DNA of 47,446 nucleotides from a virus, in the IMG/VR virus record IMGVR_UViG_3300037088_000144, positions 1 to 47,446 of that record; one strand, given 5' to 3'. Positions 1,787 through 47,446 of the stretch are shown here, in pieces (the stretch's first letter is position 1; each line of letters opens with the position of its first letter). The notes beneath the pieces were generated by a model. That model saw nothing but the letters and a program-made list of their open reading frames with translations, was not told the DNA's origin and did no database searches. The position numbers were made by a program, and so were the translations under genes.

Positions 1787-2857
1787 TTAATGGGAATCTG
1801 TCTTTCTTACAGCTAGATAATCAACTGATACCGCCTTGGCAATCAATCGTCCGCCCATAATATCTGAATACTCTTCATGAAGCGGTGTAATTACAATACC
1901 TTCTCGACCTTTAAATGAAGAATTAACCTCATTTGAATCAACAACAGTTGTAGGACCATCAACAAGCTGGTCAACAAGTTCCGGGTAAAATGGTCCCACA
2001 TATAGAACTGGAACTGTTGGAATACAAAACCGCTTACAAGCCGCTTCTACCTCTCCCCAGTTAATATAGTTACCATCTACTGCCACATCAAATACTCGAT
2101 AACCACTCTGACCTTCAACTCCATAATCCATAAACTGAATCTTAGAGCCGTAGATTTCTCCAAATACAATAACATTTGGCCCATAATTTTCTGCAAAATA
2201 CCAAAGCATCGCTTTCATGTCTTCTGTCAATGGGAGCCAATAAAGTGTTCGATTGCTATTGGTGTCAAATTCTTTCTTATTCGTTTTATGAGAACCACAA
2301 AAGTAATCACCACCAAGAAGCGCAACACGAGAATTCGTCCCGTGAATTTTCTCAGTAACTCTTATAGGAGTCCCCGTCTTAAATGCCCCTTTGAATCGAG
2401 CATTTCGATAGTTTTCAATATCAGTATAGCAATGAAACCGTGGATCACTCTTAACTTGATCCCCAGTTTTATTCCACCAAAGCGGTTCCTTTGGTTCATA
2501 TTTTACCCCGTGAAATCGATCTGTTAGATCCGTCCCAGCAGGAATATCCTGAAGTCCCAGTACAAACCCAAAAGAAGGAACTCCGCGCAAACGGGCGGCT
2601 GCCACTCGGCAGTGAGTCTTCCGGCCATCTCCTGGGTAGATTTCTGATTTAAGATATTTATCCACGCCCAATTGAGCAGCTATTTCTTCCGGTATCAAAA
2701 TATCCGGAGGAAAATATGCAACCACATCACCGGGCTTAAATTCACCCCGACCCACGATAGTTGTATATTCACCAATTGTTGCAATATCAAGACGATCCGC
2801 ATTAGGATGTGGTTTTACTGCGTCAATCTGTACCGTTATAATACGAACGTCACTCAT
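1787..2857 (-). CDS. RNA ligase, DRB0094 (DraRnl, Rnl5) type
   Basis: 356 residues. The N-terminal part (about 1-130) is OB-fold-like, as in Deinococcus DraRnl. The ligase domain follows, with the nucleotidyl-lysine motif EKIHGTNSR (Lys170), motif III FGEIYG (about 232-237), motif IV EGIVITP (about 318) and motif V around IAKAVSVDYL. This family seals 3'-OH/5'-PO4 RNA nicks using ATP, through a lysine-AMP intermediate. The start overlaps the stop of the upstream glycosyltransferase gene (ATGA) and has GGAGAG just ahead. Phage RNA ligases usually repair host-cleaved tRNA or other RNA; that role is inference here. All catalytic motifs look intact. Confidence 0.9.
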   Translation of the reverse strand: MSDVRIITVQIDAVKPHPNADRLDIATIGEYTTIVGRGEFKPGDVVAYFPPDILIPEEIAAQLGVDKYLKSEIYPGDGRKTHCRVAAARLRGVPSFGFVLGLQDIPAGTDLTDRFHGVKYEPKEPLWWNKTGDQVKSDPRFHCYTDIENYRNARFKGAFKTGTPIRVTEKIHGTNSRVALLGGDYFCGSHKTNKKEFDTNSNRTLYWLPLTEDMKAMLWYFAENYGPNVIVFGEIYGSKIQFMDYGVEGQSGYRVFDVAVDGNYINWGEVEAACKRFCIPTVPVLYVGPFYPELVDQLVDGPTTVVDSNEVNSSFKGREGIVITPLHEEYSDIMGGRLIAKAVSVDYLAVRKTDSH

Positions 2858-4494
2858 TTTCTCTCCATTAATTCGTCAATTGCTGTCACAAAATACTTTG
2901 GTTCCGGCGCTTCAAACAAAACCGATAAATCTAAACTTTGAACCCGAGAAGCCATTGTGTCCCGATAAGCACGATCTGTTACCATTTTCATAATCAATTG
3001 TTCATATTCTTGTTCTGTTGTGGCAACCAATTCACTCAACCCAACTCTACGGAGCAAATACGATGCCACTCGATTATACCATTGGTTTCCTTCCCAGGTG
3101 ATAACCGGAATTCCAAGGAATAAAGCATCTACTACACTATTATACCCTCCCCACGGGTATGAGTCAAGTGAAAAATGTCCATCTTCCAGATTTTTTAGGT
3201 GTTGTTGATACGGCTGATTAGGATAATAAACCGCTTGCCCCTTAAAAATATCATCCATATCTCGTAGAAAGGGGTATGCACAATTGTATCTATTAACACC
3301 GCAGCCAGGGAAGAAATGATAAATAATAGAGATGGGTGAACAAATTTGCACATCTCGAAGCAGTTTAAGAGTTGGATAATTGTACTTTGTGACGCCCCAA
3401 GGTACATTGACAATAACCGGCTCAGAAGCTTTCTGGGGCCGCGTGGGCACGCATGGCGGCCTTTCTGGGCGACTACCGCTCCCTGGTGCCAGAATTACTT
3501 TTTCATAATAATTCATTTCCAACAAATCTAATCGTTCAGCAGATTGTCCAGTAATAAAGTAATCAATTTGTGCCCCGAATGTCGAGCCAGGATTTCCATT
3601 TCCTGTTACTTGAATTGGCGCAATTCTACAATTTGCTAACATTACGGACTCAATTGACATTCCTATATCACAAAAATAAACAAGTTGAAAATCATTTTCA
3701 TAGATTTGAGACACATCCAGTTGTTTATTTTTATATTCAACACGTTTTACATTTTTAAACAATCTGGTATCAAGACGATTATCTTCTGGCCCCAAGGCTA
3801 CTAATGTTACAGTGTACTTCCGGGCTAACTCTTCAATCAAACTATACATCGTCTTATAAACCGCATGGCCTTCTACCCAACGATCTGCGATAAACGCAAT
3901 ATTATCTGCTTTAGGTGTATTAATAAACTCTGGCGCATGTCTTTGAAAACCAGCATTAATCTGGCCTCTAACAATTGGGGACATTATGGGATCAATGTAA
4001 CTCCCTAAGAAATAATTAGTCGTTGAACGAGACGTTGGTTGATAACGAACATCCAAAAATGAAAGATGCCACTTACTATTTTCCCATAACAATTCTGTAG
4101 TACGTCCTGCGGCCGGTTGTAAATACATATCATACCAAAGTGATGCTAATTCGGCATCATAGTCAAAAAATTCTCGGGGATTAATTTGAATTTGATTCCG
4201 AACAGTATATAAAATCATTTGCTTTGGATATGTCTTAGGTCTAGTGCGCAAAATCTCCAGTGTGGAGTCTGTCGTTTTAAATGAAGACATTGCAATCACA
4301 TTTGCCAAAACATGATTCGCCGTTAAAAGTGCAATCGCTTCATCCCGAGTCAATAGAAAATTAGGATCTGAAAATGTATGAAGAATATTTTGTGCAAGTG
4401 TGTTAATCTTAATTGCCGAGGCGGGAGATATTTTATTATAACCCACTTGGCAATAATAAAAAAGTTCGTCAAATATCTGTTTAGAGGTCAACAT
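2854..4494 (-). CDS. GT41/HMW1C-like glycosyltransferase, paralog B
   Basis: 546 residues, clearly a paralog of the next gene upstream. The C-terminal half has the layout of HMW1C/OGT-like GT41 enzymes: an RIAPIQVTGNGNPGSTFG block (about 287-305) followed by an IDYFITG strand, then LDSYPWGGYNSVVDALFLG (about 443-462), EGNQWYNRVASYLLRR and a VGLSELVATTEQEY tail. HMW1C enzymes transfer hexose to Asn in Asn-X-Ser/Thr of adhesins in the cytoplasm. This copy has GNP where paralog A has GHP, so a conserved His of the motif is missing and activity or specificity may differ. The N-terminal 200 residues are helical and not recognised. It overlaps the upstream gene by 14 bases. Confidence 0.75.
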   Translation of the reverse strand: MLTSKQIFDELFYYCQVGYNKISPASAIKINTLAQNILHTFSDPNFLLTRDEAIALLTANHVLANVIAMSSFKTTDSTLEILRTRPKTYPKQMILYTVRNQIQINPREFFDYDAELASLWYDMYLQPAAGRTTELLWENSKWHLSFLDVRYQPTSRSTTNYFLGSYIDPIMSPIVRGQINAGFQRHAPEFINTPKADNIAFIADRWVEGHAVYKTMYSLIEELARKYTVTLVALGPEDNRLDTRLFKNVKRVEYKNKQLDVSQIYENDFQLVYFCDIGMSIESVMLANCRIAPIQVTGNGNPGSTFGAQIDYFITGQSAERLDLLEMNYYEKVILAPGSGSRPERPPCVPTRPQKASEPVIVNVPWGVTKYNYPTLKLLRDVQICSPISIIYHFFPGCGVNRYNCAYPFLRDMDDIFKGQAVYYPNQPYQQHLKNLEDGHFSLDSYPWGGYNSVVDALFLGIPVITWEGNQWYNRVASYLLRRVGLSELVATTEQEYEQLIMKMVTDRAYRDTMASRVQSLDLSVLFEAPEPKYFVTAIDELMERK

Positions 4495-6244
4495 AAAATG
4501 GACCTTTATCTCGGGACTTTTGAATTAGGTTATGATTTTCTAAAATAAAATCAAAGGCTTTAACGAACCACTGAGGTTCATCATTATCACAAAGAAGCGA
4601 TTTTAACCGATCTACACTAGCAACCTGCGAGCGCGCTTCTTCTAATTTTTCAGATTTAGTTAATAACTCAACTGCTTTGTCAACATATTCTTCTTGACTC
4701 TTACAAACTAAATTGCTAAGTCCTACTCTCCGTAATAAAGCCGAGGAAGCACGATTATAAAATCGGGTCCCTTCAATTGCCAGGGCCGGGCACCCAACAA
4801 AGAAACTATCTACAATAGTATTGTAACCACCAAAGGGCCAGGAGTCCAATGCAATTGTCCCTTTTTCAAGTTCAATCAAATAGTCTTCATATGGTAACTC
4901 AGGTAATAAGACAAACTCATCACCAAACATCTGAGTTAAATCACGGATACAAGGTATCATTGAATTATACCGCCCGATAGTCCACGCAGGGAAAAGACGT
5001 ACCATTGAATTTGGCACTCGGTCTAAAATTTTACGAAGATTACAAAGCATTGTATAATTTATTTTTGGACTTGTCCATGCACAATTAATAATAGGTCTCT
5101 CAAACGATGGATTTCTTCGAGTATAATTAGGAAATACAGGGTGGGCTCCCAATCCTGGAACAAGAACTAATCTCTCACTATAATTTTCAAGAGCCTTTTC
5201 AGCTACTTCTGTTTCTTGTCCACCAATATAATAGTCACACAGCGAACCAAATGTACTCGACGGATGCCCGTAACCTGTTACCATAATTGGAGCTAAGCGA
5301 AGATTGGCTAAAATTACAGATTCATTTGACATGCCCACATCGGGGATATAGGCTAAATGACAATCCAGTTTTTGAAAAATAGACAAATCCAAATTACCTT
5401 TTGAAATATCTCCGGTGCAAATTACATCTTTAAATTGAGTTTTTGCAAGCGATTCACTATCAACTCCCAAATGAACCAGTGTTAAATCATATTTCTTTCC
5501 TAAAGCTTCTAATTGGTGCGCACTACTCTTATAGACCGCACTGGTAGGATACCAGCGCCCTGTAATAACTGCGATTTTTTTCTTTGATGTTTTTACTGGG
5601 GTTTTAAAATATGGGACTCTATTCCGAATTTGTTGATTCAAAACTGTTTTTATTTCTCGATCTTTTTGAGGAATAGCATACGTACAATCAAAATACGCGG
5701 GTGATGTCAATAAAAGAACCATGTTAAATTTATCAGGAATTTTAGAGTAGTGCCTAGAAATATTATCTGCTAGTAATTTTGTAGGCGAGCCACAACTAGA
5801 TGCTGAGTATGTAATCCACCACAATGTTGCTAATTTAGAATTCAAATCAAAAAATACATCCTGATTAAACATTGGCTGATTTCGGCATGAATACATTACC
5901 AAAATCTTAGCAAAATTTCCTGTTTGATGCATGATATGACGCAATAATGAATCCGTAGTTTCATAAGAGGAAACAGCAATCAAATTTGCCATCAAATGAT
6001 TCATTGTTATTAACGTAGGAATATGATTCTCTGGAATATTAAATTCAGATTGCGAAAAAATAAATAAAATAGCTGCAACAGTATCATCCAATATAGACTG
6101 GTCTACTGACCCTATACTTGTATAGCATGAAGACTCAAAATCATGCAACATATCAATAATTCGTTTGCAAACTTCGTCAAAATTATTCTGAGAATAAAGT
6201 TGCATTAACTCTTTTCCAGTAACATGGTGGTCAAATAATTTCAT
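4481..6244 (-). CDS. GT41/HMW1C-like glycosyltransferase, paralog A
   Basis: 587 residues. I chose the ATG at 6244, which overlaps the methyltransferase stop (ATGA), over a longer reading frame that begins inside that gene. The C-terminal half shows GT41-like blocks: LRLAPIMVTGYGHPSSTFG (about 312-330), CDYYIGGQ, LDSWPFGGYNTIVDSFFVG (about 465-484), EGTRFYNRASSALLRR and VGLSNLV. The GHP His is kept. The N-terminal region lines up with paralog B (for example SSYETTDS against SSFKTTDS), so the pair arose by tandem duplication. Its neighbours, a methyltransferase and a second type of glycosyltransferase, suggest a role in decorating virion or host-surface molecules. The acceptor is unknown. Confidence 0.77.
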   Translation of the reverse strand: MKLFDHHVTGKELMQLYSQNNFDEVCKRIIDMLHDFESSCYTSIGSVDQSILDDTVAAILFIFSQSEFNIPENHIPTLITMNHLMANLIAVSSYETTDSLLRHIMHQTGNFAKILVMYSCRNQPMFNQDVFFDLNSKLATLWWITYSASSCGSPTKLLADNISRHYSKIPDKFNMVLLLTSPAYFDCTYAIPQKDREIKTVLNQQIRNRVPYFKTPVKTSKKKIAVITGRWYPTSAVYKSSAHQLEALGKKYDLTLVHLGVDSESLAKTQFKDVICTGDISKGNLDLSIFQKLDCHLAYIPDVGMSNESVILANLRLAPIMVTGYGHPSSTFGSLCDYYIGGQETEVAEKALENYSERLVLVPGLGAHPVFPNYTRRNPSFERPIINCAWTSPKINYTMLCNLRKILDRVPNSMVRLFPAWTIGRYNSMIPCIRDLTQMFGDEFVLLPELPYEDYLIELEKGTIALDSWPFGGYNTIVDSFFVGCPALAIEGTRFYNRASSALLRRVGLSNLVCKSQEEYVDKAVELLTKSEKLEEARSQVASVDRLKSLLCDNDEPQWFVKAFDFILENHNLIQKSRDKGPFYVDL

Positions 6245-7410
6245 TGAACCCTCTGAATTGTTTGTTGTCTTAAAGTAAACACTGGGCAAGTAATTCCTCT
6301 GGCAGTCAATTCTAAACAAATATCCTGAGTACGCCAAGGGGTTGTAATAACAATCGCATCAGGTTTAATTTGCTCTATATCACCAGCATATCGAATCAAC
6401 TGCCCGGTGCCGGGAACAAAACGACCAGCTTTATTTTTGTCTGAGTCAATTACGATAGGAAACTGGTCGCAATTAATACTAAACAAATTTAAAAATGTTG
6501 CGCCTTTTCCAGTGCCACCCCAAAACGCCAAGACTGGATATTCTTTTTGAAGTTGTGCTAAAGCCACTGGAACATTAGTAAGCTGACTTTGCCATTTATC
6601 TTCAAAGGCGTCAAATCTTTTCTTTATCACTTTAATGCCAAAATTAGAAGGTGTTACACAGGCTACTAGAACTTCTCCAGAATAATATGAATCCACACTA
6701 TTAAGTACATAACTTGATGTACTTAACATTGTAGAGAGACTTCGACAATTAAAATTAGACACATGTTCATATAAATAGTCGCCGCACCGCCCTAACTCCA
6801 AGGCATGGCTAAAACTAGGAACTTCATAAATACAAACAGGTTTCAAATCATATTGTAGACTCCAATAGGCAATCTCAGCAATAAAGTCTCTTGGCTGTTC
6901 TAAATGTTCAATAACATGCCGACAAACAATTAAACCCGGTTGATATCGCTTTATATCTCGTTCAGGAACAAAATAGTCTTGTACTACTTCAAAATCAGTA
7001 ATCTTCTTTGCTTCAATACCAGGCTCGAAACCCAAAAATTTTTCATCGGGTGCCCACTTCTTTAATAACGAAAAGAATTGACCATCGCCACAGCCAATAT
7101 CAATAGCAACTTTATTATGCCATACATCTCGGTATTTAAACGCCAGTCGCCCAATATCACATAAATGTTCTTGCCATGCTCCGCCATTATTATACATTAA
7201 ATTGGAATCCTCAGCGTAGGGGATTCTAGTATAATCAAATTGAATATTCCACACATGCCCACAAAAGGCACACATTCTAAAATCCATTGGATACCGCAAA
7301 GCCTCAATCGCATCAATTTGACTTCGGGGCAAATTTAACGCTGCCAATGGTTGTGGCCCGGGGTTAAAAAGAGGGTATGAAGTGGCGTGGCCGCAGGCGA
7401 TGCATCTCAT
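6241..7410 (-). CDS. SAM-dependent methyltransferase with zinc ribbon and C-methyltransferase C-terminal domain
   Basis: 389 residues. The start at 7410 begins MRCIACG and has GAGG 6 bases upstream. Residues 3-50 carry two CxxC pairs (CIAC and CAFC), matching the zinc-binding head of TylCIII/NovU-type sugar methyltransferases. A Rossmann SAM site follows (AIDIGCGDGQFF, about 97-108), with a CRHVIEHL block later. The C-terminal third (VLAFWGGTGKGATF, about 290-303) resembles the C-terminal domain of the same sugar C-methyltransferases. These enzymes usually methylate NDP-sugars. It overlaps the next gene upstream by 47 bases and is followed by the two glycosyltransferases, so it may make or trim a modified sugar for them. 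Confidence 0.8.
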   Translation of the reverse strand: MRCIACGHATSYPLFNPGPQPLAALNLPRSQIDAIEALRYPMDFRMCAFCGHVWNIQFDYTRIPYAEDSNLMYNNGGAWQEHLCDIGRLAFKYRDVWHNKVAIDIGCGDGQFFSLLKKWAPDEKFLGFEPGIEAKKITDFEVVQDYFVPERDIKRYQPGLIVCRHVIEHLEQPRDFIAEIAYWSLQYDLKPVCIYEVPSFSHALELGRCGDYLYEHVSNFNCRSLSTMLSTSSYVLNSVDSYYSGEVLVACVTPSNFGIKVIKKRFDAFEDKWQSQLTNVPVALAQLQKEYPVLAFWGGTGKGATFLNLFSINCDQFPIVIDSDKNKAGRFVPGTGQLIRYAGDIEQIKPDAIVITTPWRTQDICLELTARGITCPVFTLRQQTIQRVQ

Positions 7411-15059: not shown

Positions 15060-15800
15060 TTATCGAGCCCGGCGTTTAGTAGCTGGTGCTTCTTCAACCT
15101 TTTCCACTTCTCCACTCTTTAGAGCATAAAACTTCTTAATTTCATCCGTGACAACATCAATAGGTGGAAGATTAGTAAAAGGAGTGGTACATTGGAAACT
15201 TACTGGCACATGCCAACCCCATGAACCCTTTGTAATATACTTAGCCTTCAAAGTACATGGAAGTGGTCCACGCGCTTCAACAGTCTTTCCAGTCCTTTCA
15301 CTGATTTGAGCGGCGGCTGCTGGAGAGATCGGACAGAAACTAAGAAATCGAGTTGATTCCCTACGACCAGATGCCGTTCCAAAAAACAATTCATAGAACT
15401 GGGCCTTATTTCTCTCAAATACAAGAAAACAAACACCATACATACAATGGCTATTATCTTCTTCATCGGACGCCTTTTTCATTCGCTGATATTCTGGCGA
15501 CTGAGAATCATAACTTACAATAACATTATCCCGATCCGCCATATCAATAGCCTTTGGTCGCCAGGCGAATGGTATAACATCAATCTCTGTTCCCAAATCT
15601 TCAATATTGTCTTCACTAACTGGAACCCCGTAATGTCCAGGGCCAATTAACTGTAAATCAACATACTTACCTTTTGTATAAAGCTGAATACGTTGGAGAA
15701 AGGTTGAATTCTGAATAACCCCACGAAAAACATCCATACTGGGGGCTAGATCCGGCAATGATTCAACTTGATAAACTGGAACCAACTCATTCTTTGACAT
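15060..15800 (-). CDS. Abundant-type early protein, unknown family
   Basis: 246 residues, mixed alpha/beta, ending in a basic tail (ATKRRAR). Landmarks are GVIQNSTFLQRIQLYTKGKYVD, MYGVCFLVFERNKAQFYELFF, GKTVEARGPLPCTLKAKYI and a final helix DEIKKFYALKSGE. AGAGGAG precedes the ATG. It is the only gene of this block followed at once by a strong terminator and is close to the promoter at 16996, so it is probably made in quantity; a DNA-binding or replication-accessory role would fit. I do not recognise the family. Confidence 0.7.
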   Translation of the reverse strand: MSKNELVPVYQVESLPDLAPSMDVFRGVIQNSTFLQRIQLYTKGKYVDLQLIGPGHYGVPVSEDNIEDLGTEIDVIPFAWRPKAIDMADRDNVIVSYDSQSPEYQRMKKASDEEDNSHCMYGVCFLVFERNKAQFYELFFGTASGRRESTRFLSFCPISPAAAAQISERTGKTVEARGPLPCTLKAKYITKGSWGWHVPVSFQCTTPFTNLPPIDVVTDEIKKFYALKSGEVEKVEEAPATKRRAR

Positions 15801-15835: not shown

Positions 15836-16021
15836 CTACTCTTCATCAATCGCGTGACCATATGCTGCAATAAATATATTTTGCTCAGTTGCTAAATCAG
15901 TTAATTGTCTCCGCAACCTAGCAATTGATTCTGTCTCCCAATTCTTTAAGTTACATTGTTTTGCTAATTTTCTTACTTCCCGAGTAGACAACTCTTCAAT
16001 GATACTTTCAGGATTCTTCAT
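15836..16021 (-). CDS. Small SAP/HeH-like helical protein
   Basis: 61 residues. The stretch LSTREVRKLAKQCNLKNWETESIARLRRQL has the helix-extended loop-helix pattern of SAP/HeH DNA-binding domains. The start overlaps the ParB-like gene by 14 bases. A DNA-binding helper to the ParB-like protein is plausible. Confidence 0.6.
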   Translation of the reverse strand: MKNPESIIEELSTREVRKLAKQCNLKNWETESIARLRRQLTDLATEQNIFIAAYGHAIDEE

Positions 16022-16973
16022 TTAATGACTCTTGTATTGGTAGTTGTTGAATTAATTCATCATCCTGGCGATCCCGGCGGTCAGCCGTCCGATTTGCTAT
16101 TTTAACTTGTTGTTCTTGAAATTTATCCTGGGCTCGTTTTATCTGAGCCACCATGCTATCAGGATCTAAGTGCAAAACCCATGCCAAAGCTAGGTTCCAG
16201 GCATCTAATGGTTTAGTTATATTATTTTTTACTAACAAAACTGGACCTAATAACTGATGTTTATGTTCTGCAACAATAACTCTATAAAACTGAAGATAGG
16301 GGTGTGGTTCAAAATGTGTTTTATAGAAATTACCAACCCGTTCTTCTACGCGCTTACTCTTATACCCCCGCAACTGTTCACTACAAAAACGAGAAAATTC
16401 ATTTGCTGGTTTTACAATTGCATCTTCCTCTAAATCGACTTGCATCCATTTAGGAAGTTTAGCTAACATATAAGCAGAAGTAATAGGAATCTCGCCTCTA
16501 TCGACCCTCTTTCCAATCTCAGAAATAAGATTTAACAATCCTAACATTTTCTTAATCCAAGCTGGAGACTTACGTATATCTTTAGATAAACCAGCAAATG
16601 TCATTTTTGGATCCGCCATGAAAATTCGTTTCATTTGATTTGCAAATGAAACGGGCTTTGTCATCTGTTTTATTGCATTTGCTTGTAATTGTATTCTAAG
16701 AACTTCGGCATCATCTGCTTCAACTATAATTGCAGGAATAAATTCAAGTTCTAAGTCTTTATAACATAACCAACGTTTCATTCCATCAACAATCTCATAA
16801 CGATCTTCTTGGCGATTTGATGGTCTAACACAAATTGAATTGATTAAACCAAAATCCTTAATCGAATCCCTAAGCTCCAAATAAGCAAGTGACTTTTTGT
16901 TTACCAACCGCATAAGTAAATATGGTTGAAAAATAATTTTCACTGGGATCAATTCAACTCGTTCATTTGGCAT
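16008..16973 (-). CDS. ParB-like nuclease/partition-domain protein
   Basis: 321 residues. The N-terminal ParB domain shows LRDSIKDFGLINSICVRPS (about 33-51), then YEIVDGMKRWLCYKDL (about 59-74; the usual GERR.A box reads GMKRWLC), IPAIIVEADDAEVLRIQLQANAI (about 78-100). A helix-turn-helix follows (MTFAGLSKDIRKSPAWIKKMLGLL, about 123-146). Residues beyond 200 are basic. Phage ParB-like proteins serve as plasmid-type partition factors, CTP-dependent DNA clamps, nucleases or regulators. TAGGAG is 8 bases before the ATG, and a promoter lies directly ahead, leaving a leader of about 16 bases. Its position next to the mirrored repeats suggests it may bind them. Confidence 0.85.
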   Translation of the reverse strand: MPNERVELIPVKIIFQPYLLMRLVNKKSLAYLELRDSIKDFGLINSICVRPSNRQEDRYEIVDGMKRWLCYKDLELEFIPAIIVEADDAEVLRIQLQANAIKQMTKPVSFANQMKRIFMADPKMTFAGLSKDIRKSPAWIKKMLGLLNLISEIGKRVDRGEIPITSAYMLAKLPKWMQVDLEEDAIVKPANEFSRFCSEQLRGYKSKRVEERVGNFYKTHFEPHPYLQFYRVIVAEHKHQLLGPVLLVKNNITKPLDAWNLALAWVLHLDPDSMVAQIKRAQDKFQEQQVKIANRTADRRDRQDDELIQQLPIQESLNEES

Positions 16974-16984
16974 ACAATTTTCTC

Positions 16985-17079
16985 CTATACTACTTATGAT
17001 ACCATTTTGCCTCTCTTTACCAATAGAATCTAAAAATTTTTTGAGAATCTTTTTGATTACATCTTATAGGGTATTTACT
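16985..17079 (-). repeat. Left arm of a 95-base inverted repeat
   Basis: Reverse complement of 17325-17419 with equal length and no gaps; I count about 78 of 95 matching bases. Identity is nearly complete in the inner 43 bases and in the outermost 23 bases, and low between them except at the -35 box. Confidence 0.9.
16996..17023 (-). promoter_or_regulatory. Leftward promoter of the ParB-like operon
   Basis: Minus strand: TTGGTA (17023-17018), 16-base spacer, TATCAT (17001-16996) with TGG directly ahead (extended -10). The right arm repeats both hexamers and the spacing exactly while the spacer bases differ. Confidence 0.7.
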
Positions 17080-17324
17080 CTTCCCTAATAAGTCATATTA
17101 TTTTTTACTTAATCTTTCAACAGTTAAGTCACAACTTGTTTTTATAAAAGAGAGTTATGTCATTAGAAGCCGAATTAACTATCTCTCAGACTACAACCAG
17201 TAGAAATAAAAATCAAATAAAGTTATATTATATATAGGAGATAATACAGAAAATAGTTATTTTTCAAAATAATGCTATAACTTGATTCTATAACTAGATT
17301 TAGAATCCGCCTGTTGAATAATGA

Positions 17325-17419
17325 AGTAAATACCCTATAAGATGTAGTCAAAAAGATTCTCAAAAAAATCCAAGAATTCATTGGTACCAACCTATGAAAT
17401 GGTATCATAAGTAGTATAG
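17325..17419 (+). repeat. Right arm of the 95-base inverted repeat
   Basis: Mirror copy of 16985-17079. Both arms run from AGTAAATACCCTATAAGATG at the inner end to GTAGTATAG at the outer end. Confidence 0.9.
17381..17408 (+). promoter_or_regulatory. Rightward promoter of the primase operon
   Basis: TTGGTA (17381-17386), 16-base spacer, TATCAT (17403-17408) with TGG ahead. It should start RNA near 17415 and leave a leader of about 38 bases before the primase ATG. Confidence 0.7.
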
Positions 17420-17452: not shown

Positions 17453-20182
17453 ATGCCCAAAGTATCTGATGCAATAAAAACGTTTCTATCTCGTATCCAT
17501 CATAATTGTCCAGAGATGGCGGCTTGGTACACTGATGGTATGGAGGTTCAGATAATGGCTGCCGCTGATAAAGGTGAGCCGGTAGCAGGTAAACGTAATA
17601 CATGGAGTGATGGTATTACCGAATGGGGACATATTCGATTACCAAAAAATGCCGATACTGAACCTGTGGACAATGACTATGAGATGCGATGGCCTCTTCA
17701 TGAGCATGTTGACTATATCGGTATGACGGGTTGGTGTTATAAAAATAAACGTTCGATTCGAGTAGGTTTCGATTTTGATTCAATTATGGGGCACGCTAAT
17801 GGAGTTGGTGTCACCGATGATGAACTTTTAAGAGTTAGAGCCGCCGTTGAAAAAATACCCCAAGCGTGGTTATTTTACAGCACGGGTGGGTCGGGTCTTC
17901 ACTTATATCTACCCTTCGATCCTGATAACGCCCCTGAAACAGTAAACCACCATGAACATGCGGCACTTGCAAGATCCTGTTTAGGAGTTCTTTCTAACCT
18001 TGTAAACTATCCATTTGAAGCTGCTTTGGATGTTTGTGGTGGAAATATGTGGATTTGGGGTCGTAAGATGACAAGTGATAATCACGGATTATCACTTATC
18101 AAGAAAGGCGAAGGATTCTTTGAACCGCCGCTTCATTGGCGAGATCATATTTCTGTTGTTACTCGCAAACGAACAAAGATTCAAATTCACGGTGTGCCTG
18201 ATGGTGAAGAAACAGATGTTGAAAATATGGCTGCCAGTCGTCGGTTGATTCCTTTAGATGCAACACACCGTAAAATTATTGAAGAACTTCAAACACTTAA
18301 TTATTCAACTTACTGGGTTGATGATCACAATATGCTTCAAACCCATACTTGTGCTTTAAAAGAAGTGTTTAAAAGATTTGCAGAGCGTGGTGATCCATTA
18401 CACGGTCAATATGACACATTGAGTGATGGCACGGACCCTGGAAAGCCAAATTGTTTTGCCTTTGCCTGCCTTGATGGTGTTTTTAAAGTTATTAGGTATG
18501 GAGAAAATAAATCTACGGAGCATGTCACATGGAGTAAAGACAATAAAGGAAGGGCATATTGTTATTTCAATCAAAAATTAGATTTAAACATTGCTGCCAC
18601 GATTTTTGGTGGAATGGAAAATGCCTCCCGGGGTGGAGGCTATACTTTTCCAACAGCAGAAGAAGCTTTGGGAGCTATCAAGTCTCTCGGTTCATCATTT
18701 GATATACCCGCACAATTGGTGGGAAAACCCACAACGTTAAGAACACATAAGGATGGTCGAGTAGTTGTTGAAATCAAAGCTAAAACAGATGATCCTGTCC
18801 CAGGTTTTATTCAAGAACGTGGTAAATTTGTAAAGCTTTTGAATGTCCAAGCAAGGCCAACTGCCGAAGATGATGAAAAAGTTGAAAAATTTGATTTGGA
18901 AACTTTAGATCAAATGGTTAGGGCACTTCTGACTGTAAATTTGGATGAGGCCGGTTGGGCTTTATACGACTCTGAATTTAATCATTGGACAAGACAAACA
19001 AAAGATAATATTCGATCGGCGCTTAAAGCTAAAAACTTTGACTCTGACGCTACGGAAAAGATTATGGGGCACTCGGTAATGAAAGCTTGGTCCTTAGTAA
19101 ATATACCATTTGCTGATGAACAACCTGGTAATCGACAGTGGAATATTAATGCGGCTCAGTTTCGTTTTGCTCCGACACCATATCCTGATGATATGACATC
19201 AATGCACCCCCACTGGGATTTAATTTTAGAACATTGTGGTGAAGATTTAACGCAAGCATTAAAACATAGTGAGTGGGCGCGTAAGAATAGTGTCTCAACT
19301 GGAAAAGATTATCTACTATATTGGATTGCTTCAATGTTTCGCAATCCCTTTGATCGACTGCCCTACCTATTCTTTTTTGGTCCACAGAATTCAGGAAAAT
19401 CAATATTTCATGAAGCAATAGCACTTCTTGTAAAAGATGAAGTAGGTGTACAACCAGCCGATCAAGCTTTGACAAATCCTAATGGATTCAACGGTGAACT
19501 AGCAAACACCTTCTTATGTGTTGTTGAAGAAACAAACTTATCGAAAGAAAAATCGGCAGCATATAATAGAATCAAAGAGTGGACAATGGCTTTAATGATG
19601 TCTATTCATCCAAAGCGAATGCAAGTTTACAAACAACGAAATACAACTCACTGGATTCAGTGTGCAAATGAAAGAACATACTGTCCTATTTTTCCAGGGG
19701 ATACTCGTATAACAATGTCTTATGTGGGACCACTTGAAAGAGAAATTCCAAAGGATCAATTGATTAAGTTATTGGAGGCTGAAGCACCATATTTCATGGC
19801 GACTATATTATCTATTAAGTTGCCAGAAGCAGATGGTCGAGCAAAAATCCCGGCTTTAATGACGGGCAGCAAAGAACAAGCGGCGTCTGCAAATCGAAAT
19901 CCTTTGGAAGCATATTTAGAAGATATATGCCACCACTCACCCGGTTCCTTTATGTCTTTCAATGAGTTTATTGAACATTTTATGGATTCATTGCCATCAG
20001 TAGATCGGCCTCAATGGAATGAGCGGCGTATTCTTCAAGAATTACCAAATCAATACCCATCTGGACATTATAAAAAAGATAATAAGATTTATATCGGTAA
20101 TGTATCTTTTACAAAACCCGAAGATTCACTAACACATAAGTTTATTTTTGAAAATGGACAATTGGAAAGGGTGCTATTGTGA
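17453..20182 (+). CDS. Primase-polymerase/SF3-type helicase fusion
   Basis: 909 residues. The N-terminal part looks like an archaeo-eukaryotic-type primase: the acidic GFDFDS (about 106-111) and STGGSGLHLYLPF (about 142-154, the usual SxH motif). A linker region follows. The helicase is C-terminal: Walker A FFGPQNSGKS (about 641-650), Walker B-like FLCVVEETN (about 687-695), motif C-like WIQCANERTYCPI (about 733-745) and PGDTRITM. This is the D5/phage P4-like design that lays primers and unwinds DNA at the origin. It is the first gene of the rightward operon, directly beside the repeat-rich region. The ribosome site (GAGAAG) is weaker than at other genes. Confidence 0.9.
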   Translation: MPKVSDAIKTFLSRIHHNCPEMAAWYTDGMEVQIMAAADKGEPVAGKRNTWSDGITEWGHIRLPKNADTEPVDNDYEMRWPLHEHVDYIGMTGWCYKNKRSIRVGFDFDSIMGHANGVGVTDDELLRVRAAVEKIPQAWLFYSTGGSGLHLYLPFDPDNAPETVNHHEHAALARSCLGVLSNLVNYPFEAALDVCGGNMWIWGRKMTSDNHGLSLIKKGEGFFEPPLHWRDHISVVTRKRTKIQIHGVPDGEETDVENMAASRRLIPLDATHRKIIEELQTLNYSTYWVDDHNMLQTHTCALKEVFKRFAERGDPLHGQYDTLSDGTDPGKPNCFAFACLDGVFKVIRYGENKSTEHVTWSKDNKGRAYCYFNQKLDLNIAATIFGGMENASRGGGYTFPTAEEALGAIKSLGSSFDIPAQLVGKPTTLRTHKDGRVVVEIKAKTDDPVPGFIQERGKFVKLLNVQARPTAEDDEKVEKFDLETLDQMVRALLTVNLDEAGWALYDSEFNHWTRQTKDNIRSALKAKNFDSDATEKIMGHSVMKAWSLVNIPFADEQPGNRQWNINAAQFRFAPTPYPDDMTSMHPHWDLILEHCGEDLTQALKHSEWARKNSVSTGKDYLLYWIASMFRNPFDRLPYLFFFGPQNSGKSIFHEAIALLVKDEVGVQPADQALTNPNGFNGELANTFLCVVEETNLSKEKSAAYNRIKEWTMALMMSIHPKRMQVYKQRNTTHWIQCANERTYCPIFPGDTRITMSYVGPLEREIPKDQLIKLLEAEAPYFMATILSIKLPEADGRAKIPALMTGSKEQAASANRNPLEAYLEDICHHSPGSFMSFNEFIEHFMDSLPSVDRPQWNERRILQELPNQYPSGHYKKDNKIYIGNVSFTKPEDSLTHKFIFENGQLERVLL

Positions 20183-43186: not shown

Positions 43187-43693
43187 TTATTCTAATAAAA
43201 GTTTAAACCATCGAGGAATTCCATTTTCAATGGTTAATTCATAAGAACCATCTTCAGTTGGTTGTGCTGGAACCCAAGCATTTACACCGCTAGCTCCTCT
43301 TACTCCAGCGTGTCCAGCGGCTCCTGTTGGCCCAGAGGCACCAGACGGGCCAACTGCTCCAGTAGCGCCTGTAGTCCCTTTAAGTCCGGTAGGACCTGAA
43401 GCACCAGATGCACCACTTGAGCCAACTGCTCCTGTAGCTCCAGCGACTCCTGTAGCTCCAGCGGCTCCTGTAGCTCCAGCGGCTCCTGTAGCTCCTGTAG
43501 GTCCTAATGAAGGACCGATTGGTCCGGTAGGGCCAATTTTTGTTTTTACATAAGTTTCAACTGATATTACTTCAGTAGATAATGCATCATAATCTGCTGA
43601 ATCAGGTACTTGATCCTCTTGACGAGAGGCCCTATTAGTGCCATCAAGTCCATCCCAGACTTCACCGGGGAATACTGATGTTTGTTGTGACAT
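43187..43693 (-). CDS. Collagen-like virion protein 1
   Basis: 168 residues. An N-terminal anchor ([20 protein letters not shown], then [18 protein letters not shown]) is followed by about 29 Gly-X-Y triplets (about 53-140) such as GATGAAGATG and GPSGASG, and a short beta-type cap ([17 protein letters not shown]). It should form a trimeric triple helix with a globular end on the virion. It is a paralog of the next gene upstream, sharing anchor and cap. Confidence 0.82.
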
Positions 43694-43702
43694 TGTAGTC
43701 TC

Positions 43703-44224
43703 CTATTCTGAAATCATGGGTTGCCAAGTAGCATTACCATTTTCAACAACCAACTTGTAATGTGCGTCAGCCGATGGTTGCGAAGGAACCCAGGCAGAAC
43801 CAGCGCCCGTGGGGCCGGCGGCTCCTGTGGCACCTGTAGGTCCTGTTGGACCGGAACCCGTAGCTCCAGTTGCACCTGTAGCCCCAGTTGCACCAGTTGG
43901 TCCTGATGGTCCCCCACCAGGTCCGACTGCACCAGTAGCTCCTACGGTTCCAGTAGCTCCATTGGCTCCGGTCGCCCCAGCTACTCCAGTAGCTCCGGTT
44001 GCTCCACTCACTCCTCCTGCGGGACCTGTAGGACCGGTGGCACCAGTAGCACCAGTTGCTCCGATTGGATTACTATTAAGATAAGTTTCTACTCCAATCG
44101 CTTCTGCGGATAATGCGTCATAATCTGCTGAATCAGGTACTTGATCCTCTTGACGAGAGGCCCGATTAGTACCCTCTATTCCATCCCAGACTGTACTGGG
44201 AAATCTTGCTGTTTGAGTTGCCAT
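43703..44224 (-). CDS. Collagen-like virion protein 2
   Basis: 173 residues with the same plan: anchor ([38 protein letters not shown]), about 30 Gly-X-Y triplets (about 55-145) rich in GATGATGATG and GPTG, and the cap [19 protein letters not shown]. The anchor DNA is nearly identical to that of the next gene while the collagen parts differ in order and length. Probably a second, alternate fibre subunit. Confidence 0.82.
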
Positions 44225-44248
44225 TCTTTTCTCCTATTTTGTTAAAGG

Positions 44249-47446
<3,198 letters not shown>

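Follow-up and report, generated by a model that had tools for sequence, protein, structure and literature searches.

What is the region between the divergent ParB-like and primase genes of this phage for, and what reads the sequence that it carries twice in mirror image? In the window, by which we mean the whole stretch of 47,446 nucleotides that was analysed, positions 16985-17079 and 17325-17419 are gap-free inverted copies of each other, identical at 78 of 95 positions; a blastn E value of ~3e-22 excludes a chance origin of the match. The first-pass annotation had described mirror-image 95-base arms with outward-facing promoter cores, in which the core elements are kept across a diverged spacer, and every part of that description is found in place. 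The features of the region, with strand and position, are:

15060-15800, minus strand: gene for a 246-aa protein, which follows parB in most of the family and is 46-52% identical in two relatives
16008-16973, minus strand: ParB-like gene, 321 aa, heading the leftward cluster (PF02195, 5.9e-13; PHROG 4715, 2.8e-20)
16980-16985, minus strand: Shine-Dalgarno GGAGAA of parB, immediately 3' of the core and kept in the third copy
16985-17079, minus strand: parB-side arm, promoter-proximal end at 16985, 78/95 identical to the primase-side arm
16985-17007, minus strand: 23-base core AAATGGTATCATAAGTAGTATAG, parB copy, exact in all three genome copies
16996-17004, minus strand: TGG-TATCAT, parB copy, exact relative to the other arm
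16996-17001, minus strand: TATCAT, parB copy
17018-17023, minus strand: upstream hexamer TTGGTA, parB copy, at equal spacing in all three copies
17037-17079, minus strand: inner 43-base upstream block, parB copy, 42/43 relative to the other arm, absent from the third copy
17080-17324, no strand: AT-rich centre (25% GC), candidate replication origin by its composition and by the genome GC-skew minimum here
17325-17419, plus strand: primase-side arm, 78/95 identical to the parB-side arm
17325-17367, plus strand: inner 43-base upstream block, primase copy, 42/43 relative to the other arm, absent from the third copy
17381-17386, plus strand: upstream hexamer TTGGTA, primase copy, at equal spacing in all three copies
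17397-17419, plus strand: 23-base core, primase copy, exact in all three genome copies
17400-17408, plus strand: TGG-TATCAT, primase copy, exact relative to the other arm
17403-17408, plus strand: TATCAT, primase copy
17453-20182, plus strand: primase/helicase-like gene, 909 aa, heading the rightward operon

Identity is spread unevenly along the arms. The outer 23 bases are exact, a changed stretch follows in which only (A)TTGGTA survives, at unchanged spacing, and the inner block is then identical at 42 of its 43 positions. Specifically, the -35-like TTGGTA, the 16-base spacing and TGG-TATCAT are exact in both arms, whereas the spacer between them is mostly changed; such exact blocks on either side of a changed spacer support the earlier view that selection acts on discrete blocks and not on the spacer. 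The pattern TTGGTA-N16-TATCAT occurs only twice in the window, and both cores face outward, toward the start codons of parB (ATG 16973, minus strand) and of the primase gene (ATG 17453, plus strand). The 245-base centre has 25% GC compared with 40.6% for the window, and also holds a small open reading frame of 26 codons with a plausible ribosome site (17157-17237, plus strand). The 909-aa primase matches PHROG 1156 DNA primase (9.6e-10) and, by profile, the PDB 6k9e primase (8.6e-7); compared with described phages it gave no match at either the nucleotide or the protein level.

The window is part of a larger phage genome. From position 14 on it agrees at 100% identity with a section of a 109,792-base record. 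The 23-base core led to a second record, of 56,254 bases, which overlaps each end of the longer one at 99.97-100%, so that the two close into a circle of ~139.6 kb. (Positions 1-26, at the contig start, are a poly-C run, and in its first 13 bases the window departs from the longer record that overlaps it, probably as an assembly-end artefact.) The second record carries a third exact core, ~43 kb from the mirrored pair, with the same TTGGTA and spacing. This copy resembles the parB copy over 61 bases at 90% identity, Shine-Dalgarno included, and has neither a mirror partner nor the inner block, which shows that the block is separable from the core, as had been proposed. With the same polarity, it heads a late cluster with terminase, endonuclease VII and portal genes; judged by how the genes are ordered and which strand they use, this cluster continues into the window's head and tail genes. 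Scanning the complete circle for the core gives three perfect sites, and the next best has six mismatches. Each copy lies immediately upstream of a gene, with a Shine-Dalgarno and ATG directly after it in two of the three cases. The parB/replication, primase and late units thus have one element in common: the pair of cores noticed at first is there, but its scope is wider than a pair, and common control of the ParB-like and primase operons is supported at the level of sequence.

One record considered as a different phage with the same promoter, L007, was rejected as such, being another part of the same genome. Elsewhere that genome encodes a phage tmRNA (tag AKPQLALAA; L026:14476-14773, minus strand) with four tRNAs near its gene (L027:107-843), a second ParB-like protein of 284 aa (L028:16509-17363, minus strand) and a TnpB-like transposase with a weak match to a Cas12f1-type TNB domain (L033:2818-4374, plus strand). 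The window itself also contains a glycosyltransferase of family 41 type (HMW1C-like; 4481-6337, minus strand), an RNA ligase (1787-2857, minus strand) and, at 43187-47383, GC-rich and much duplicated collagen-like repeat genes, which recur elsewhere in the genome.

The closed circle allows the locus to be placed relative to strand composition. When the cumulative GC skew is detrended, its minimum falls at 75,440, and the repeat occupies 75,430-75,864. The third-position skew of minus-strand genes shifts across the locus from about -0.27 to between +0.03 and +0.08, so the change is not merely a by-product of gene direction. One distant relative (G004) has the same skew contrast at its locus, and in another (G005) the GC skew is flat there, with no change. 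Because it sits at the skew minimum, the mirrored-repeat locus is probably a replication origin, in keeping with the first-pass annotation, in which the arms frame an AT-rich candidate origin.

More than 80 relatives were found, with hosts in the Planctomycetota. Alignment of the primase gave 78 viral loci and four Planctomycetota assemblies, and in 61 of these parB and primase are divergent neighbours. We compared each distinct region between the two genes with 100 dinucleotide shuffles of itself, using other intergenic regions of the same loci as controls; the controls are shorter, for which the per-region shuffles allow. An inverted repeat beating all shuffles is present in 51 of the 53 parB-primase regions and in 4 of the 102 controls (Fisher 1.5e-33). 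In ~31 of the repeat-bearing regions, by table count, both arm ends lie <130 bases from the start codons; in some relatives the strongest repeat is far from one start codon, and thus not every repeat need be a promoter pair. Among related phages the mirrored arms are therefore near-universal as an architecture, but their sequences are phage-specific.

The two distant relatives, with primases ~40% identical to that of the window phage, share its gene order and architecture but not its sequences. In G004 the mirrored arms are 76 bases long and a 22-base core occurs in three exact copies (next best, seven mismatches), one of them heading the late cluster; an extra inner block lies within the parB-primase region, and the late copy has a counterpart of the inner block. 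In G005 a 22-base core occurs in two exact copies (next best, five mismatches), on a contig that ends before the late-cluster head. Its parB-primase region (L069:12560-13220) contains many iteron-like CCGGAGGTA/ATACCTCCGG repeats in both orientations, and its primase frame (L069:8743-12453, minus strand; 1236 aa) has an insertion of ~300 aa within the primase, perhaps an intein. The gene at the late-cluster head (the orthologue of a 179-aa gene) could be inspected in 18 phages: eight have their own core there, in the direction of transcription in 8/8 and with none of 50 other phages' arms fitting equally, and the other ten show no third copy at this gene. One family member lies in a 444-kb Planctomycetota contig (QQVP01000119.1; L149, L224-L229) with an integrase on one side and housekeeping genes, IF-2 and RuvB among them, beyond; it is apparently an integrated prophage.

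Within a genome, then, the arms match, and between genomes they do not. The arm-versus-arm score within a genome is 15-49 (median 22), compared with a median of 5 and a maximum of 12 for same-side arms of phages with <70% primase identity. The change can be abrupt: L084 and L137 have primases that are 81.7% identical and arms with no similarity. It can also be gradual, as in one subgroup (L081, L082, L089, L090, L111 and L128, L132, L133) where the sequence drifts and both arms change alike. A search for a motif common to the cores of the family scored barely above shuffles, with scattered sites, and the cores have no excess of dyad symmetry (2.89 versus 2.71 shuffled). That the arms match within each genome despite differing between phages makes them appear to answer to a single partner protein that changes with them.

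The reading that best accommodates these comparisons, to which we give a probability of roughly 0.6, is that the cores are phage-specific promoters, read by one phage factor, through which replication is coordinated with the late genes and whose sequences turn over in concert. The arms would be two copies of one such promoter facing outward from the origin. With TATCAT taken as the -10, each core would span about -16 to +7; TTGGTA lies upstream of it, and the inner block further upstream still. The parB-side copy would start the parB/replication cluster leftward, the primase-side copy the primase operon rightward, and the third copy the late structural cluster. If one phage-encoded factor reads all copies in a genome, most likely a ~216-aa sigma-like protein together with the host RNA polymerase, sites and reader would change jointly and the sequence would be replaced in concert; a lone trans-acting reader that co-evolves with its sites predicts just this, a match within each genome and freedom to differ from one genome to the next. 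The transcription starts, the sigma-like protein as reader and the function of the inner block are inferred; the block probably serves as a distinct site for an activator or initiator. Several observations count against this reading: the ten phages that show no core at the late gene, the repeats remote from a start codon in some relatives, the weakness of the sigma matches by sequence, the flat skew in G005, and the fit of the window's core to a sigma-70 extended -10 promoter.

The best candidate for a reader is encoded in the leftward cluster. This 216-aa protein has weak profile matches to phage sigma factors (PHROG 351/1740; best PHROG E 2.7e-6), and it is diverging; sigma-like relatives were found in 20 of the 29 records, for the most part in long ones. 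A model built with 15 family members (pLDDT 81) has two helical parts joined by a low-confidence linker, and all 50 listed PDB matches of this model are bacterial sigma factors or sigma models. The best structural match has an E value of 5.6e-4 with a low overall TM, because the domain arrangement is not fixed.

The main rival is an asymmetric repressor of the stoperator type. The cores would then be operators for immunity or autoregulation laid over ordinary promoters, and their turnover would reflect selection for new immunity types. Like stoperators, the sites are asymmetric, phage-specific and in a single orientation relative to transcription (PMC9283540, PMC6550527), and the relative with an adjoining integrase in a planctomycete chromosomal contig makes some members look temperate. 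However, there are two or three sites per genome instead of up to ~30, the third copies are always at an operon head, and a tyrosine integrase, present in some relatives, was not found in the window phage. We consider repressor operators unlikely, though they deserve to be kept in mind; the asymmetry, polarity and position of the cores speak rather for a sigma-read promoter.

Sites for the ParB-like protein or a replication initiator, serving partition or the origin and not transcription, would suit the adjoining parB gene, the skew minimum at the locus and the extra inner block in the region of G004. But the cores lack dyad symmetry, as expected for promoters, and the late-operon copies keep a promoter-like position and polarity, which makes partition or initiator sites improbable as an account of the arms.

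The first-pass annotation had taken TTGGTA and TATCAT for sigma-70 elements, and plain host extended -10 promoters, duplicated in inverted form and kept alike by gene conversion, would indeed fit the 16-base spacing and, at each of the two window sites, a TG together with nine matching hexamer positions out of 12. A close relative argues otherwise. In L039, which is syntenic and has a terminase 80% identical to that of the window phage, the late-operon site reads GTAAA...AAATG-CCG-TCATAAGTA-TATA, followed by a Shine-Dalgarno: TATCAT has become CGTCAT and TTGGTA has become CCCGTA, whereas AAATG-N3-TCATAAGTA-TATA is kept. Loss of the hexamers with other bases retained speaks against a plain host promoter, as do the missing common -10 motif in the family and a promoter scan that yields fewer sites than shuffles, and this part of the original interpretation lacks support in the form given. 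(Exact-pattern searches for further copies in other viral contigs led back to the same phage or to L039; the remaining hits, in unrelated contexts, appear to be due to chance.) Nor do exact blocks split by a diverged spacer, with a third copy 43 kb away, resemble conversion tracts, and we regard host sigma-70 promoters as disfavoured, with little chance of being correct.

Promoters of a T7-type single-subunit phage RNA polymerase would share the core of ~23 bases that is near-identical within a phage and different between phages, but are barely credible here: no RNA polymerase was found among the large proteins scanned (a 1118-aa protein considered as one gave low-complexity matches only), and the PF00940 profile matched neither record, although it matched no control genome either.

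If the sigma-read promoter is correct, a stronger and distinctly tentative version can be drawn from it, which we think more doubtful than not: a lock-and-key at the origin, where the mirrored architecture is fixed and two or three sites are replaced wholesale in concert with the phage sigma reader, outpacing primases that are still 82% identical, so that each lineage has its own transcription identity. Such an identity could possibly amount to an exclusion or immunity type. More generally, the locus marks the likely origin and the main transcription units for a family of planctomycete phages, and it is a control element that can be recognised by mirrored placement without any conserved sequence motif. 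The ~50 phages form a natural series for comparing site sequence, architecture and candidate reader, which makes co-evolution of promoter and sigma factor directly testable.

Among open-licence papers we found none on this phage group or on such mirrored origin promoters, but parts of the arrangement have known counterparts. As in ParB/parS systems, a ParB-like gene adjoins repeated sites; unlike parS, the cores are non-palindromic, and one of the copies stands at the head of a late operon. T7-type promoters have a ~23-base core that differs from phage to phage but hardly varies inside one; here the sites are mirrored at the origin, the upstream block is also conserved and no RNA polymerase gene was found among the large proteins scanned. 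The stoperators of cluster A mycobacteriophages are asymmetric, lineage-specific sites, in one orientation and changing with their reader as the cores appear to do, but each is 13 bases long, they are numerous and their repressor is known, whereas here two or three sites, each longer, stand at the heads of operons (PMC6550527, PMC9283540). There is also a likeness in principle to phiEco32 and phage 7-11, which have few, well-conserved promoters of phage-encoded sigma factors (PMC4331800): there too a phage sigma gene accompanies a few conserved phage-specific promoters that start structural genes, some of them in the long, upstream-most intergenic region. Those promoters have a short TGATGT-type motif in about ten copies, whereas in the present phages the core is 22-23 bases long and occurs two or three times; two of the copies mirror each other on either side of a putative origin that separates parB from primase, and from one relative to another the sequence is replaced wholesale.
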